Source: Bacteriovoracaceae bacterium (lineage in GTDB: Bacteria > Bdellovibrionota > Bacteriovoracia > Bacteriovoracales > Bacteriovoracaceae). Taken from it: a stretch of DNA of 40,016 nt. The notes beneath the pieces were generated by a model. That model made no database searches and was not told the origin of the DNA. It saw nothing but the letters and a program-made list of their open reading frames with translations. The position numbers were made by a program, and so were the translations under genes. Positions 575 through 7,421 of the stretch are shown one piece after another. Numbering within the stretch: position 1 is the stretch's first letter; every line of letters starts with the position of its first letter. The stretch is taken from positions 1 to 40,016 of the forward strand of contig JAGLPP010000039.1 in the NCBI GenBank assembly GCA_023137315.1, given 5' to 3'.

Positions 575-1543
575 TTATGAAGAGACTATGTTAAATACTG
601 CCTTGAATTCATCATTAACCAGTCTGGATAATCCAACAAGTTTATCATCGTCATCATAAATCCAAAAATAATCACTTCCTGAAAGCACAGTCCCATTGGC
701 ATCATCCAACTGAACATGGCCATCCTGATTAAAACGAAATGGATTTCCATTTTTATATCTTCTTGCCAGCTCACCGGAAATCCCAATCTTCCCAAATGGT
801 AAAATATCCGTGAGCTTCATACCATTGGCCTTAACATCAAATATTTCATCTTTTTCAGGCCATGAATATCTTTTTAGCGAATCGGACATGCTTATATGCC
901 CAATTGATTCCCTGACAAGAGAAATAAGTGTTCCACATGTTCCAAGATATTTAGCAACATCCTGAAAAAGGGTTCTGATATATGTTCCAGAGCTGACACA
1001 AAAACGCATTGACAGGTAAGGAAAGGAATATTTAACCACTTCAATTGCATAAATCTCTCTTCTTACTTCATCCTTTTTTATCTTCACACCTTCTCTTGCC
1101 CATTCATGAAGAGGTCTCCCTTGAAATTTTGAGGCCGAATATTGATGCGGAGACTGCTCATAAGGACCAAGAAATTTTTCCAGAACTGTCTTTTCTATAA
1201 AATCAGCGCTGAATGAAGCAATTGTTTTTTTCAGATATTCCCCGTCATCAATCTTGCGTTCTGGAACAGTAAGATCCCCTGTCTCCGTATAAACCCCCAA
1301 TTTTCCCACTGCCAGGTATGTTTTTGGAAAAAGATCATGAACAAGATTATTTATTCGCGTTGCCCCTGCAATCCCAACCAGCAAAACCCCACATGCAAAC
1401 GGATCAAGAGTACCAAAATGTCCAATTTTTCCAAATCCTGTGTTGAGATTTCTTTTAAAATGTCTTATTACATCATAGGAACTCATACCAACAGGCTTGA
1501 ATACATTAAACACCGCAGGTGGATATAGAATCGGTTTTTTCAT
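575..1543 (-). CDS. truB: tRNA pseudouridine(55) synthase TruB
   Basis: TruB converts U55 to pseudouridine in the T-arm of tRNAs. At 322 residues it has the family's usual length. The N-terminal KPVGMSS motif (17-22) and the catalytic GHFGTLDPFACGVL segment (41-54, nucleophile Asp47) are both present. A C-terminal portion of about 80 residues would correspond to the PUA-like domain. It is the last gene of the rimP-nusA-infB-rbfA-truB cluster. Its ATG overlaps the rbfA stop (TGATG, 1541-1545) and I see no Shine-Dalgarno of its own, so it is probably translated by coupling to rbfA. It ends just before the bidirectional terminator at 519-556. Confidence 0.97.
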   Translation of the reverse strand: MKKPILYPPAVFNVFKPVGMSSYDVIRHFKRNLNTGFGKIGHFGTLDPFACGVLLVGIAGATRINNLVHDLFPKTYLAVGKLGVYTETGDLTVPERKIDDGEYLKKTIASFSADFIEKTVLEKFLGPYEQSPHQYSASKFQGRPLHEWAREGVKIKKDEVRREIYAIEVVKYSFPYLSMRFCVSSGTYIRTLFQDVAKYLGTCGTLISLVRESIGHISMSDSLKRYSWPEKDEIFDVKANGMKLTDILPFGKIGISGELARRYKNGNPFRFNQDGHVQLDDANGTVLSGSDYFWIYDDDDKLVGLSRLVNDEFKAVFNIVSS

Positions 1544-1920
1544 CAGGAGGTTTGACTACCGGTATGTTTTCCTCTTCCGGCCTCTTCATCGAGGATTTCA
1601 GAAATTGCCTTTTCAGATTCAAACTGTGAATCATAAACAAAATTAAGTTCTGGTGTATGACGAATTTTCAAGGTCTTTGCAAGCATGGAACGAATTTTTC
1701 CACGAACTTTTGAAAACGCTATTTCTGCTTCAACCTTGATATCTGAATCAAATGTATCCCAATAAACTTTAGCATGGGAATAATCAGACGAAATCTCCAC
1801 TTTTGTAACTGAAACAAATTTCAAGCGCGAATCACGCATATGCGTCCTTAGAAACACATTTACGTCATGCAAGATACGTTCTTCGATTTTTTCCTTTTTG
1901 AATGGTCTCTTTCCGCTCAT
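1543..1920 (-). CDS. rbfA: 30S ribosome-binding factor RbfA
   Basis: RbfA is a small KH-fold protein that binds the immature 30S subunit and helps 16S rRNA maturation and cold adaptation. The 125-residue length fits. Family features visible are the basic N-terminus, the LKFVSVTKVEISSDYSHAKVY strand region, and the IRSMLAKTLKIRHTPELNFVYD region in the second half. The stop overlaps the truB start. The ATG at 1920 is preceded by GAGGA, and the infB stop lies 8 bases upstream. The order infB-rbfA-truB is the widespread bacterial arrangement and supports the call. Confidence 0.96.
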   Translation of the reverse strand: MSGKRPFKKEKIEERILHDVNVFLRTHMRDSRLKFVSVTKVEISSDYSHAKVYWDTFDSDIKVEAEIAFSKVRGKIRSMLAKTLKIRHTPELNFVYDSQFESEKAISEILDEEAGRGKHTGSQTS

Positions 1921-1928
1921 TACATCCT

Positions 1929-4670
1929 CTACGAGGTCATCGAAATTCCAACTTCATCCAACGATCTCTTTCTTTCCTCTTTAACATAGGCTTCAAACAC
2001 ATCGTTCAGTTTTATATCATTAAAATTCTCAAGACCAATACCGCATTCGTATCCATTGTTAACTTCCTTCACATCATCCTTAAATCGTTTCAGCGAAGAC
2101 ATCAATCCATCAAAAACAATCTTGCCTTGTCGAAGCAGTCTTATTTTACATCCACGTTTTATTTTTCCATCAATGACAAGCGATCCTGCAATCGTTCCAA
2201 TTTTTGGCACTGCAAACGTATCACGTACCTCTGCACGACCGATATAAACCTCTTTGAATTCAGGTTCAAGTATACCCTCAAGTGCAAATTTCACATCATT
2301 AATCAGCTCATAAATAATGGAGTAGGTTTTTATATCAACACCTTTTTCCACAGCAAGCCTTCTTGCGGAGGTAATCGGCCTCATGTTGAATCCTATAATA
2401 AATCCTTTTGCTTCACCTGCAAGCATTACATCACTGTCACTTATGGCACCTACACCACCTCCAATCACTTGTACGCCAACCTCATTATTATCCAATGCTT
2501 CCAAAGAACCCTTGATTGCCTCATAGGAACCCTGAACATCGGAACGAACAATAAGCTTGAGTATCTTTTTCTCCTCTCCTTCTCCAGAATAGGTTGCAAA
2601 AAAATCCTCCAGGGAAACTGTCTTTTTGCTGGCCTGAATTTCGTTGTCTTTACGTTCCTGAATACGGTTGGCAACGACCTTTTTAGCCTCCCTTTCATTT
2701 TTTACAGCATGAAGATCATCTCCAGGTTGCGGTGCCTGATTAAGTCCGAGGATCTGCACAGGTTGAGACGTAACTGCTTTATTTATCTGTTCTCCCAGAT
2801 GATCCATCAGATTTCTGGCACGCCCAGAGGACTCACCAACAACAATGCTGTCACCTTTTTTAAGTGTTCCCTTTTGAATAAGAATTGTGGCCACAGGTCC
2901 ACGTCCCTGCTCGACTCTGGCCTCTATGACAACTCCTTCCGCTCTGCCATCGGTTTCAGCTCGAAGGTCCATAATCTCAGCTTGAAGCATTATGGATTCC
3001 AACAACTCATCAACTCCATCACCTTTAAGGGCCGAAATTGGAACACACTGTGTTTGACCACCCCACTCTTCTGGAGCAAGATCGTAGTCTGCAAGCTGGG
3101 TTTTTATTCTATCAAGGTTCACACCCTCTTTATCAATCTTGTTGATGGCAACAATGACTGGAACTTCAGACTCGCGACAAAATTTTATTGATTCAATCGT
3201 CTGAGGCATAATTCCGTCATCCGCAGACACAATCAAAACCACAATGTCCGTAACCTGCGCACCTCGCTGCCTGATAGTACTAAAGGCGGCGTGTCCCGGA
3301 GTATCAAGAAAAGTGATACTCCTTCCTTTTACTTCGACTTGATAAGCACCGACATGTTGAGTTATTCCACCGGCTTCCCCTTGGACGACCTTGGTGTCTC
3401 TTATATAATCAAGAAGTGTTGTTTTACCATGATCGACATGTCCCATAATAGTAACAATTGGATCACGTAAGGGAAGTTTGTTTATTTCTTCCTCGGAAAT
3501 TTCCTCATTACCCAAAATCTCATTCTCGTCAAAGGCTTTATCCTCCACCCTATAATTATATAAATCTACAATCTCGGTTGCGAGAATAAGTCCTACATAA
3601 TCATCAGGCTTGATCAAAAGATTAATATCAAGTACCTGATCTGCCAGATCCTTAAACTTAACACCCAATTTGTGTGCCAGTTCGTTAGTAAGACATCCCT
3701 TATGAACATAAATAACCCGCTTGGATTCCTTAATCTCCGACGATTGTGCATCCCTTGTCGGTCCAACATAAAACTTCTTTCTCTTAACCTGTGTATAAAG
3801 TGGTTTTCCAGTACCCGACAGTGCCGCATATGACTTTAATTCCGCTTCCGCCCTTTGCTGCACAATTTGCTGGGATTTGGTAACTCCTCCTGCCTGAACT
3901 TTTCCGGACATTATTGAGGCCAGTCCACCCATTCTCTTGCGCGTCGCTTTCTGCTCAGTTGATGATTCGTCTGTACCATCGCCCGTCTTCTTCTGCGCCT
4001 TCACTCCCGCCTCTTCACCTTCTTTCTTCTCCACCTTTTCTTTTTTCGGTGGGATATAGACTGGGGTAAATTTATGAACCTTTTCACGATAAACACTTTT
4101 CTGCTCTTGTTCTTGTTTCTTCTCTGGCTCGTCGCTTATCGCCGTTTCCTCTTTATTTTCCGGTCTAGCAACAACCCTTAGACCATGACTTTTATCCCCT
4201 GCTTCAATTTCAGGTGATATTTCCTGTTCAGTCTGAGAAACCTCATCCTGCCGCTCTTCGGCCATAACAACCTGATCCTGATCAATCGCTGTCGTTACAT
4301 TTTCATCATCAACCTGTTCCTCTGAAGGCTTTCTTCTGATAACAGTCTTCTTTCTAATTGTCGTTTTCTTGGATGCATCATCCTCATCCTTTTTCGGTGT
4401 CTTCGCACCACCTTTGGTGGCGACAACCTTGCTCTCGACAGTCTTCTTTTTTGTAACTGCTTTCCTCTTTTTAACCGTTTTTTTCTTTACTGGCACTTCG
4501 TCCTTGCCCTCTTTTCCAGACTTGAACAATTCCATCACTTTCTCTAACTGCTCATCAGAAAGTTCGGTCATATGATTTCTTACAGTAAATCCATTGGACT
4601 TTAAATTCTCCACTAGCTCCAGAGGTTTCATATTAAAATCTTTAGCCAGCTCGAAAATCTTTTTTGGCAT
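1929..4670 (-). CDS. infB: Translation initiation factor IF-2
   Basis: IF-2 is the GTPase that brings fMet-tRNA to the 30S subunit and promotes subunit joining. The 913-residue protein has an N-terminal IF2_N helical domain (about 1-50) and a long, highly charged Lys/Glu/Thr-rich linker (about 60-300). A second IF2_N-like module (about 320-375) comes next. The G domain starts near residue 405 with GHVDHGKTT (G1), DTPGHAAF (G3) and NKID (G4), followed by the beta-barrel and C-terminal initiator-tRNA binding domains. The ATG is preceded by GGGAG. It lies between nusA and rbfA. The linker is low-complexity and is likely to be the most variable part between strains. Confidence 0.98.
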
Positions 4671-4709: not shown

Positions 4710-6122
4710 TCACTTCAACTTGAATGCTGCAAGTTCTTCTCTTAATCTTCTTTCAGCTTCAGAAAACTTGTCCTTCTGATCAACATCACCAAATGCACCT
4801 TGCTGATGAACCATACCACTATATGCCGGTACGGCTGAAGCCGATACAAGTTCCTCCTCCTCTTCCGGAGCGAGAATAACTTCACCCTTATCAATCAAAT
4901 CCTTTGTGGCATCAATAATTGTCCCGGCCACTGTCTCATCAATTTCCAAGACCCTGACAAGGTCAACAACTTCCATCGCAACCAGATCTCCAATATTCAT
5001 AATACCTTCCTGAACCAGAACCTGTGCTGCCGTATCTGTCACATTGGGAATCTGCACAAGGTTTTCAACGGCCTTTTTTATTTTTTCCTGAAGTTTGGTC
5101 TTGGAGATAATGTTTACTCTGTGACTACTAAGCATGGAAGCAAGCCGTACATTTTGTCCTTTTCTTCCAATGGCCAATGCAAGCTGATCCTCTTCCACGA
5201 TAACATCCATCGAATTTTCCTCTGAATTAAGCATAATATTGGAAATTTCAGCAGGTGCCAAGGCCGCACGGGCAAATGTCACCAGATCCTCTGACCATCT
5301 GACAATATCAATTTTTTCACCTTGAAGTTCATTAACTATATTTTGAACCCTGGAGCCCTTCATTCCAACACAGGCACCAACTGGATCAATATCCTTGTCT
5401 GTGGAGACGACAGCAATCTTCGCCCTGTACCCCGGCTCCCTTGCAGCAGACATTATTTCAATAGTACCATCCTGTATTTCCGGTACCTCAACTTCAAACA
5501 ACTTAACCAGAAACATCGGACAGGTTCTTGAAAGCCTTATTTCCGGGCCTTTATTGGTCATAACAACCTCTGAAAGATACGCTTGAATCCGATCACCTGT
5601 TTTAAAATTTTCACCGGGAATGATTTCTCTTCTGGGAATAATTGCATCTGCCTTACCCAAATCAACTACAATGTGACCCCTCTCATAACGTCTTGCAATT
5701 CCTGTAATGAGTTCACCTTCACGATGTTTGAATTCTGCAAAAAGGATTTCCCTTTCAGCATCACGAACTTTTTGGAAAATAATCTGTCTTGCTGTCTGAA
5801 CATCAACTCTTGTGAAGTTAGGATTTTCAATTCTAATACCCAATTGATCTCCGATCTGAGCGTCCTCATTAAGTCCTTTGGCAGCCTCAAGATCTATTTC
5901 AATAATCGGGTCCTTAACATGATCCACCACATTCTTGTATTGATATATCTCAACATCGTCATCTTCCGAATTGTATCTGGTTTCATATTCTCCCTGAATT
6001 CCGTATTTCTTTCTTGCGGTAACAAGGAATGCCTGCTCGATAGCGTTGATTACAACATCCTTTTCCACTCCTCTTTCCCTGCCTAAAGCTTCGATTACTC
6101 TTCCAAGTTCAGAAAAATTCAT
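4710..6122 (-). CDS. nusA: Transcription termination/antitermination factor NusA
   Basis: NusA binds RNA polymerase and nascent RNA, modulating pausing, intrinsic termination and antitermination. The 470-residue protein has the N-terminal polymerase-binding domain (1-~125), an S1 domain (about 135-200), KH1 with GMKGSRVQNIVNEL, and KH2 with AIGRKGQNVRLASML. A C-terminal helix-hairpin-helix/acidic-repeat-like region follows (about 350-410), then a charged tail. The start has AAGAGGA six bases upstream. It follows rimP with a 10-base gap. In E. coli NusA autoregulates its own operon, which is relevant because a terminator abuts rimP here (6667-6700). Confidence 0.97.
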   Translation of the reverse strand: MNFSELGRVIEALGRERGVEKDVVINAIEQAFLVTARKKYGIQGEYETRYNSEDDDVEIYQYKNVVDHVKDPIIEIDLEAAKGLNEDAQIGDQLGIRIENPNFTRVDVQTARQIIFQKVRDAEREILFAEFKHREGELITGIARRYERGHIVVDLGKADAIIPRREIIPGENFKTGDRIQAYLSEVVMTNKGPEIRLSRTCPMFLVKLFEVEVPEIQDGTIEIMSAAREPGYRAKIAVVSTDKDIDPVGACVGMKGSRVQNIVNELQGEKIDIVRWSEDLVTFARAALAPAEISNIMLNSEENSMDVIVEEDQLALAIGRKGQNVRLASMLSSHRVNIISKTKLQEKIKKAVENLVQIPNVTDTAAQVLVQEGIMNIGDLVAMEVVDLVRVLEIDETVAGTIIDATKDLIDKGEVILAPEEEEELVSASAVPAYSGMVHQQGAFGDVDQKDKFSEAERRLREELAAFKLK

Positions 6123-6132
6123 AATAATCCTC

Positions 6133-6657
6133 TTATTTGAAATTTATATTTGGTGATAAATTAGCCTTCTTAATATTTTCAAAATCCAGCCCAAAACTAA
6201 AATTTTCATATGTAAGTTTTATTCCTTCATCTGTGACATCACCCAGTATGCCTTTTATTTTTCTACCGGATAATTCTTTTGGCAAATTTTCACTCCCCGA
6301 AATATCCATTTTAGATAAATCACTTCTTAAAACAAGGGCGATCTCCCTACCCTTTGCCCTCTGGAAATGCTCAACCGTTCTTAGTTTTCTGAATATTCCA
6401 GGCGAAGAAACTTCCAACCTTAACTCGGGTGGCATCCAGTCCTCAGACTCAATATACGTTGTTAATCCCTTGTCCACACGAACACATTCATCCAACTGCG
6501 CCGTATCCGTCTCATCATTAATGATGTATAACCGAAGCAGATGACTTGAGGGCACGTATTCAATATCATACAATGCAAGACCCTGCTCCATAACTATTCC
6601 ACGACACAATTCGAAAAAACGCCTCTCCAATCCGGTCGCTTCCCTACCAATATCCAT
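6133..6657 (-). CDS. rimP: Ribosome maturation factor RimP
   Basis: RimP assists 30S maturation, notably of the pseudoknot/S12 region. The 174-residue length is typical. Family signatures include the early YDIEYVPSSHLLRLYI segment, CVRVDKGLTTYIE, and LRLEVSSPGIFRKLRTVEHFQRAKGREI with its conserved SSPG...R.L motif. It is the first gene of the nusA operon, 10 bases before nusA. The Shine-Dalgarno (AGGAAG, 6661-6666) directly follows the U-tract of an intrinsic terminator (6667-6700). I therefore find no room for a promoter between that terminator and the start codon. Confidence 0.95.
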   Translation of the reverse strand: MDIGREATGLERRFFELCRGIVMEQGLALYDIEYVPSSHLLRLYIINDETDTAQLDECVRVDKGLTTYIESEDWMPPELRLEVSSPGIFRKLRTVEHFQRAKGREIALVLRSDLSKMDISGSENLPKELSGRKIKGILGDVTDEGIKLTYENFSFGLDFENIKKANLSPNINFK

Positions 6658-6666
6658 ACTCTTCCT

Positions 6667-6700
6667 AAAAAAAAAGGCGGAGTTTAAAGAAAATTCCGCC
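6667..6700 (-). terminator. Intrinsic terminator/attenuator immediately upstream of rimP
   Basis: On the minus strand a GGCGGA/TCCGCC stem, extended by three A-T pairs after one mismatch, is followed by nine T residues. The T-run ends right at the rimP Shine-Dalgarno. It would end the transcript of the upstream gene (6858-7421). Because it lies only about 9 bases from the rimP ATG, it also controls entry of polymerase into the whole rimP-nusA-infB-rbfA-truB operon. The hairpin and T-run are seen; the attenuation role is inference. Confidence 0.85.
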
Positions 6701-6857
6701 CATAAAAAATCAACTGTTTAAGGACTATGTATCTCTATCAGTATTCAAACAAAATTGCAATAATATATGGCAAAAGAAGAAAATCATGATCTGAGCATTT
6801 TTCCCAAGCCACAGGTCATAAAAGCCCTTTTTCTAAATATATTTTATCTGGCCCGAA

Positions 6858-7421
6858 TCATTTTTTGACTTTAATGTAGACATGGTGATCCAACTTCCTG
6901 TCCAGCGTAAGAATATAGAGTTTGACAGACTCCTTGATTATCTCTTTTTTGTTACCTTGGTCGCTTCCAGTACTACCTTCCCATCTGCCGGAAAATCTAT
7001 CCAAAAAAAACGTTTCCATCGCAACAAGTATTTTTATTCGACTCAATTTTTTTTCATCGGAAATTAAACATTTTTTGAGTTTTTCCTTTTCCATGCCATT
7101 GTTATTCAAAAGTACTTTCCGTTTTTCAACAGTCAATTGGACTTTTTTAAGTCTGATCATTTTTTCAAGTCTGTCATCTTTGATTTTTGTCCACGTCCTA
7201 TTGAAGAAATTTCCATCAATCTCCAGGGAATGGAGCAGGATTGAATCAGGAATCAAACAACTGAAATTTTTCAAATCAACAAGGGAAACCTCAATATCTG
7301 ATTGAAAAAAAACACGATCTTCAATCCGAAAAACAGCATGATCCGAAATAGTGGCTTCCTGACAAAAGACATGTACGTTCATCGAAAAAAGAAAAACACA
7401 TGTTATCGTAAAAATACGCAT
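6858..7421 (-). CDS. Exported hypothetical protein, weakly SurA-N-terminus-like
   Basis: The 187-residue protein starts with a clear signal peptide (about 1-20, ending VHVFCQEA). The first mature segment, HAVFRIEDRVFFQSDIEVSLVD, resembles the opening strand-helix of SurA/PpiC-type periplasmic chaperones (usually an 'initAVVNdevItqsDv' pattern), but no rotamase domain follows. The middle is rich in Lys and Leu and probably helical. It follows the TPR/winged-helix regulator with a 15-base gap and is likely co-transcribed with it, ending at the terminator before rimP. I do not recognise a definite family; a chaperone-like periplasmic role is only a guess. Confidence 0.6.
   Translation of the reverse strand: MRIFTITCVFLFSMNVHVFCQEATISDHAVFRIEDRVFFQSDIEVSLVDLKNFSCLIPDSILLHSLEIDGNFFNRTWTKIKDDRLEKMIRLKKVQLTVEKRKVLLNNNGMEKEKLKKCLISDEKKLSRIKILVAMETFFLDRFSGRWEGSTGSDQGNKKEIIKESVKLYILTLDRKLDHHVYIKVKK

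Follow-up and report, generated by a model that had tools for sequence, protein, structure and literature searches.

A candidate rimP-leader attenuator, probably under NusA feedback, in Bacteriovoracaceae

We found a candidate transcription attenuator in the leader of the rimP-nusA-infB-rbfA-truB operon of a Bacteriovoracaceae bacterium. The operon occupies the minus strand of the window, i.e., the whole stretch of DNA that was analyzed, which is 40,016 nucleotides long. We consider it likely that a hairpin in this leader acts as the premature terminator in an attenuator of the rimP-leader type, with feedback by NusA as the most likely form of control. Sequence and conservation support the hairpin, its U-tract, the operon and an upstream promoter pattern. 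An initial annotation of this DNA had interpreted the hairpin as a terminator coupled to the level of NusA, and this interpretation is partly supported by the results below. In particular, its appeal to rimP leader RNAs as a recognized regulatory class agrees with our comparison, in which the element matches the rimP-leader class (PMC2965389).

The leader hairpin and its operon

Five genes follow the leader on the minus strand, and Pfam matches confirm their identities. They are rimP (6133..6657; 174 aa; RimP_N, 1.9e-11, and RimP C-terminal SH3 domain, 6e-8), nusA, which encodes the presumed regulator (4710..6122; 470 aa; NusA_N, 4.8e-31, S1, 1.7e-6, and KH_5, 4.8e-31), infB, encoding IF2 (1929..4670; 913 aa; GTP_EFTU, 3.2e-38, and IF-2, 6e-36), rbfA (1543..1920; 125 aa; RBFA, 1.4e-26) and truB (575..1543; 322 aa; TruB_N, 4.2e-32). 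The relatives of the NusA protein at 66-81% identity are all from Bacteriovoracaceae or Bdellovibrionales records. The window is C157, one of the contigs of a draft genome of 3.1 Mb, and this genome has many relatives within Bacteriovoracaceae.

Read along the minus strand, the end of the leader has the order TTTTTTAT GGGCGGA ATTTTCTTTAAAC TCCGCC TTTTTTTTT AGGAAG AGT ATG. The terminator hairpin (6675..6701), which is of the rimP-leader type, has the arms GGGCGGA (6701-6695) and UCCGCCU (6681-6675), with 13 nt between them and G6701-U6675 as the outermost pair. The U-tract is a run of nine T (T9; 6667..6675) whose first U is able to pair with G6701, leaving eight U unpaired; in most relatives this run is T6-T11. 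Next comes the rimP Shine-Dalgarno sequence AGGAAG (6661..6666), which is unpaired in the predicted fold, and the rimP ATG is at 6657. The hairpin and T9 had been annotated as adjoining AGGAAG, 9 nt before this ATG, and this placement is correct to the base.

A 45-nt RNA containing the hairpin folds at -12 kcal/mol (z = -2.1), and 7 of 200 dinucleotide shuffles are equally stable. Taken alone, the stability of the fold is thus only moderately unusual. A generic terminator scan of the window did not list the rimP leader hairpin because the scan permits loops of up to 8, and the loop of this hairpin is longer. Conservation at the same site in relatives indicates that the hairpin is beyond chance.

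Conservation and covariation

Allowing one mismatch, a hairpin with a U-tract lies just upstream of rimP in 95 of 100 distinct loci of the family. This count comes without a chance rate, and its weight rests on the shared stem core, GGGYRG/CYRCCC, which occurs in most family loci having the hairpin. Aligning the leader over related genomes for covariation had been suggested in the initial annotation, and the stem indeed covaries. A regular expression, GGGYRR...YYRYCY with T5 or more before rimP, identified 35 loci in our first set, 30 of them distinct. Among these 30 sequences, the seven base pairs are formed in 96.6% of cells. Pair 4 occurs as UG (14), CG (8) or UA (8), and pair 5 as GC (24), AU (4) or GU (2). 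Five cells are changed on both sides, compared to 1.3 in column shuffles. The covariation score was matched by 1 of 500 shuffles, and slid structures are much less paired.

A set of new loci, from which duplicates of the first set were left out, exhibits the same element. The stem and U-tract are perfect in 52 of 61 such loci, of which 44 have GGGY; among the remaining nine, the majority have the same hairpin with a mismatch. Moreover, GGGC...GCCC with a U-tract is also found before rimP in more distant Bdellovibrionota and in Chromobacterium loci. No hairpin with a U-tract was found upstream of rimP in four family members (L018, L022, L111 and L117), which suggests that they have lost the attenuator. 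A different stem, AGGGAAGAT/ATCTTCCCT with T6, is used in one genus (L002, L073, L074, L078 and L079), where the promoter pattern described below is located roughly 72-75 nt upstream of the leader hairpin.

The distance from the U-tract to the start codon ranges from 0 to 82 nt in the family, with a median of 17. The initial annotation had emphasized the leader as very compact, but the 9 nt in the window lie inside both this range and the 4-130 nt of the known class, and in 16 of 92 loci the hairpin is as close to the start or closer. It had also raised the idea that the hairpin masks translation. This idea is unsupported, as the Shine-Dalgarno sequence is unpaired and outside the stem, and the distance from hairpin to start varies widely in relatives.

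Resemblance to ordinary terminators

We built a covariance model from the rimP leader hairpin and searched it across 115 genomes. Nearly all of the top matches are rimP leaders, and the weaker ones are mostly ordinary terminators located 9-38 nt past a stop codon. Within the genome of the window, the rimP leader is the second match (E = 3.8e-5). The best (E = 3.8e-6) is on the minus strand at C75:116-148 (L056), where a 3' terminator with the same arms, GGGCGGA...TCCGCC, lies 29 nt after a 310-aa ORF. We therefore rejected the idea that the hairpin is private to rimP, as similar hairpins, including that at C75:116-148, are ordinary 3' terminators. The rimP leader element thus has the build of a functional terminator. 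This favors termination, but the stem alone is no private regulatory signal.

A conserved promoter pattern

The predicted promoter of the rimP operon conforms to the pattern TTG-N17-TGnTA. In the window it comprises a -35 element, TTGCAA (6755..6760, minus strand), and an extended -10 element, TGA-TAGAGA (TGATAGAGA; 6732..6740, minus strand), which ends 30 nt before the hairpin. The pattern was picked by eye on the loci of the first set and then run unchanged on the new loci; the two sets overlap in some genera, so they are not fully independent. With the end of the -10 element required to be 26-45 nt before the hairpin, it occurs in 17 of 36 loci of the first set (0.14 expected from dinucleotide shuffles) and in 34 of 52 new loci (0.25 expected from shuffles). 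If it may lie at any place in 120 nt, 42 of the 52 new loci have it, and 1.05 are expected. The exact pattern is missing in one clade (L035-L050 and kin) and in a few other loci. By generic consensus alone, the promoter in the window is not above chance (p = 0.46), and its -10 element, TAGAGA, is weak. Since the generic consensus is not significant per locus, the argument for the promoter rests on its conserved position.

Transcription is predicted to start near 6725, which is 6-7 nt after the -10 element and within a minus-strand region (6720..6726) bearing the A-poor pyrimidine stretch AGTCCTT. From the predicted start, it is 23 nt to the hairpin and about 58 nt to the end of the U-tract. 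Across the family, the predicted start and the hairpin are separated by a median of 26 nt (range 18-38). When rimP promoters were reduced to less than 70% mutual identity, 33 were left, and in these the positions 7, 8, 10 and 11 after the -10 element are nearly A-free and pyrimidine-rich (Y-T-N-Y-T-T). The A-poor stretch may be a part of the promoter. Similar tracts are seen in rrn promoters of the family.

The initial annotation had stated that there is no room for a promoter after the hairpin. None fits there, and the conserved pattern is found upstream instead. Because of this arrangement, with the terminator inside the leader, full-length operon transcripts would have to read through the terminator, as had been claimed. 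Transcription starting inside the hairpin, which had been offered as an alternative, is unnecessary given the upstream promoter pattern.

Proposed mechanism and alternatives

In the mechanism that we propose, RNA polymerase would start at the extended -10 promoter near 6760-6732 and transcribe roughly the first 23 nt of the leader before reaching the hairpin. The GGGCGGA/UCCGCCU hairpin and the U-tract would then stop part of the transcripts as RNAs of roughly 55-60 nt, and the remaining transcripts would read through into rimP-nusA-infB-rbfA-truB. No alternative, antiterminating fold is visible in the leader. In the window, the leader RNA that precedes synthesis of the 3' arm folds at only -1.4 kcal/mol, and the median of 26 nt between start and hairpin leaves little room for an antiterminator. 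Given the lack of such a structure, a protein acting on the elongation complex most likely determines the share of read-through, and the upstream promoter, the terminator in the leader and the missing alternative fold together imply that expression of the operon must depend on read-through. NusA, encoded by the second gene, is the best candidate for this protein. An increase in NusA would raise pausing and termination and lower the amount of operon mRNA, resulting in negative feedback. For Bacteriovoracaceae, we infer the start site, partial termination and dependence on NusA, and homology with B. subtilis, S. agalactiae and E. coli makes coupling to NusA the best inference.

Counting against an attenuator controlled by NusA are the unbroken U9, the weak promoter in the window, a stem like those of 3' terminators and the lack of a match to the Rfam model RF01770. 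The leader might simply contain a fixed, unregulated terminator, which would only set a constant low read-through and give the mRNA a stable hairpin at its 5' end, without feedback by NusA. The stem does resemble ordinary 3' terminators of these genomes, and an unbroken U-tract could provide a strong partial stop. However, many genera of the family keep the stem core and U-tract at rimP, and a related leader from a different phylum responds to NusA according to a review (PMC12288461), so we regard a fixed terminator as rather unlikely. Control by another regulator, namely RimP, IF2, an r-protein or a Nus complex acting via a boxA-like element at the 5' end of the leader, is distinctly unlikely. 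We made a boxA matrix from rrn leaders of the family (GCTCTTTAAAA, GTTCTTTAAAA and GATCTTTGACA, picked by eye), with which AGTCCTTAAACA in the window scores 8.1 bits (p = 0.01), and relatives have a pyrimidine-rich element after the -10 element. Yet this element is at the predicted start site and is similar in rrn promoters, and the matrix is not enriched in 54 relatives (mean shuffle p of 0.39; 7 with p<0.1). A leader with boxA-mediated (NusB/NusE) antitermination is thus unsupported overall by the family rrn boxA matrix over these 54 loci, and was rejected.

It is highly improbable that the hairpin is instead the terminator of the upstream gene, with a rimP promoter that overlaps or follows the hairpin. 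The upstream gene is a 187-aa ORF (6858-7421, minus strand) that is co-oriented with rimP. About 157 nt separate its end from the hairpin, with no other obvious terminator in this interval. However, the hairpin tracks rimP and not the upstream gene. The upstream neighbor in most relatives is a rimI-like acetyltransferase gene (TIGR01575; two were tested, and one was over the curated cut-off), in the window it is the unrelated 187-aa ORF and in L008 it is a divergent gene, and the hairpin remains with rimP beside all three. The conserved promoter pattern between the upstream gene and the hairpin, and the mere 9 nt that separate the U-tract from the ATG, also argue against this explanation. Stopping read-through from upstream could nonetheless be a second role of the hairpin. 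The 187-aa ORF has a signal-peptide-like start, and no family match to it was found in Pfam or NCBIfam.

Relation to known rimP leaders

Judging by its sequence, the element in the window belongs to the rimP-leader class already described by Naville and Gautheret (2010). Their motif is a premature terminator in the 5' UTR of rimP-nusA-infB, with a GGGc(...)gCCC stem and a U-tract (PMC2965389). It has no visible antiterminator, and its terminator is 4-130 nt from the start codon (PMC2965389). Given the lack of an antiterminator, these authors proposed a protein regulator, most likely NusA (PMC2965389). The element reported here has the same site in the rimP 5' UTR, the same rimP-nusA-infB genes and a U-stretch directly after the stem, and its distance of 9 nt (0-82 in the family) is within the 4-130 nt range. 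By contrast, the last C of the published stem is a U in the window, giving the outermost G-U pair (most relatives have GGGY..RCCC), the stem continues with GGA/UCC (GGGYRGA/UCYRCCC in relatives), and the family adds a conserved extended -10 promoter in a narrow range of distances.

RF01770 (rimP) models a leader of 102 nt. At its threshold of 47 bits it has no match in 6600-6900, nor is the leader among its sub-threshold matches in the same genome. No Rfam model matches the window's leader at its gathering score. An L20_leader match of 21 bits (gathering score 58.7) was rejected as a generic GGGCGG..CCGCC-U resemblance. The rimP-leader class is therefore widened by a covarying, family-wide set from Bdellovibrionota that the Rfam rimP model misses, along with a precise prediction of promoter and start. 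As an extension of this class, the conserved, short promoter-terminator module is a useful addition, and the shortness of the leader provides a clean system for asking if NusA alone sets read-through of its own operon.

In B. subtilis, NusA is autoregulated through intrinsic termination that it stimulates in its own leader, according to a review's account of work from 2016 (PMC12288461). Both operons encode NusA and have an intrinsic terminator in the leader, but the B. subtilis leader is ~180 nt (PMC2965389), compared to ~65 nt predicted here, and the response to NusA belongs to that system, whereas here it is suggested by homology. NusA-dependent terminators in B. subtilis frequently have distal interruptions of the U-tract, which is a tendency and not an absolute criterion (PMC8060035). 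The U9 in the window, which follows a hairpin of -12 kcal/mol, is unbroken and so lacks this feature. The rimP operon leader of S. agalactiae yields a short and a long transcript from a common start site (PMC4448216) and, like the leader here, it is very short, with an intrinsic terminator near the start. In that leader, termination was mapped by RNA-seq to 31 nt from the start (PMC4448216), whereas the ~58 nt in the window are a prediction. Terminators also occur upstream of rimP in E. coli (PMC6511841), and NusA represses the operon there, according to work cited in PMC2965389. The E. coli metY-rimP-nusA-infB operon differs in being preceded by several promoters and a tRNA gene.

U-tracts adjacent to the start codon

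The rimP ATG follows the U-tract directly, or with ATTTT/ATTTTT in between, in eight loci (L011, L086, L144, L085, L088, L091, L093 and L113). In three of these (L011, L086 and L144), which are from one genus, it comes directly after T9 without a Shine-Dalgarno sequence. Since all eight loci lack a Shine-Dalgarno sequence, the U-tract is the only candidate for a ribosome landing site. It seems unlikely, though conceivable, that one U-tract serves both termination and ribosome landing in some genera, in which case the hairpin would control transcription and translation together.
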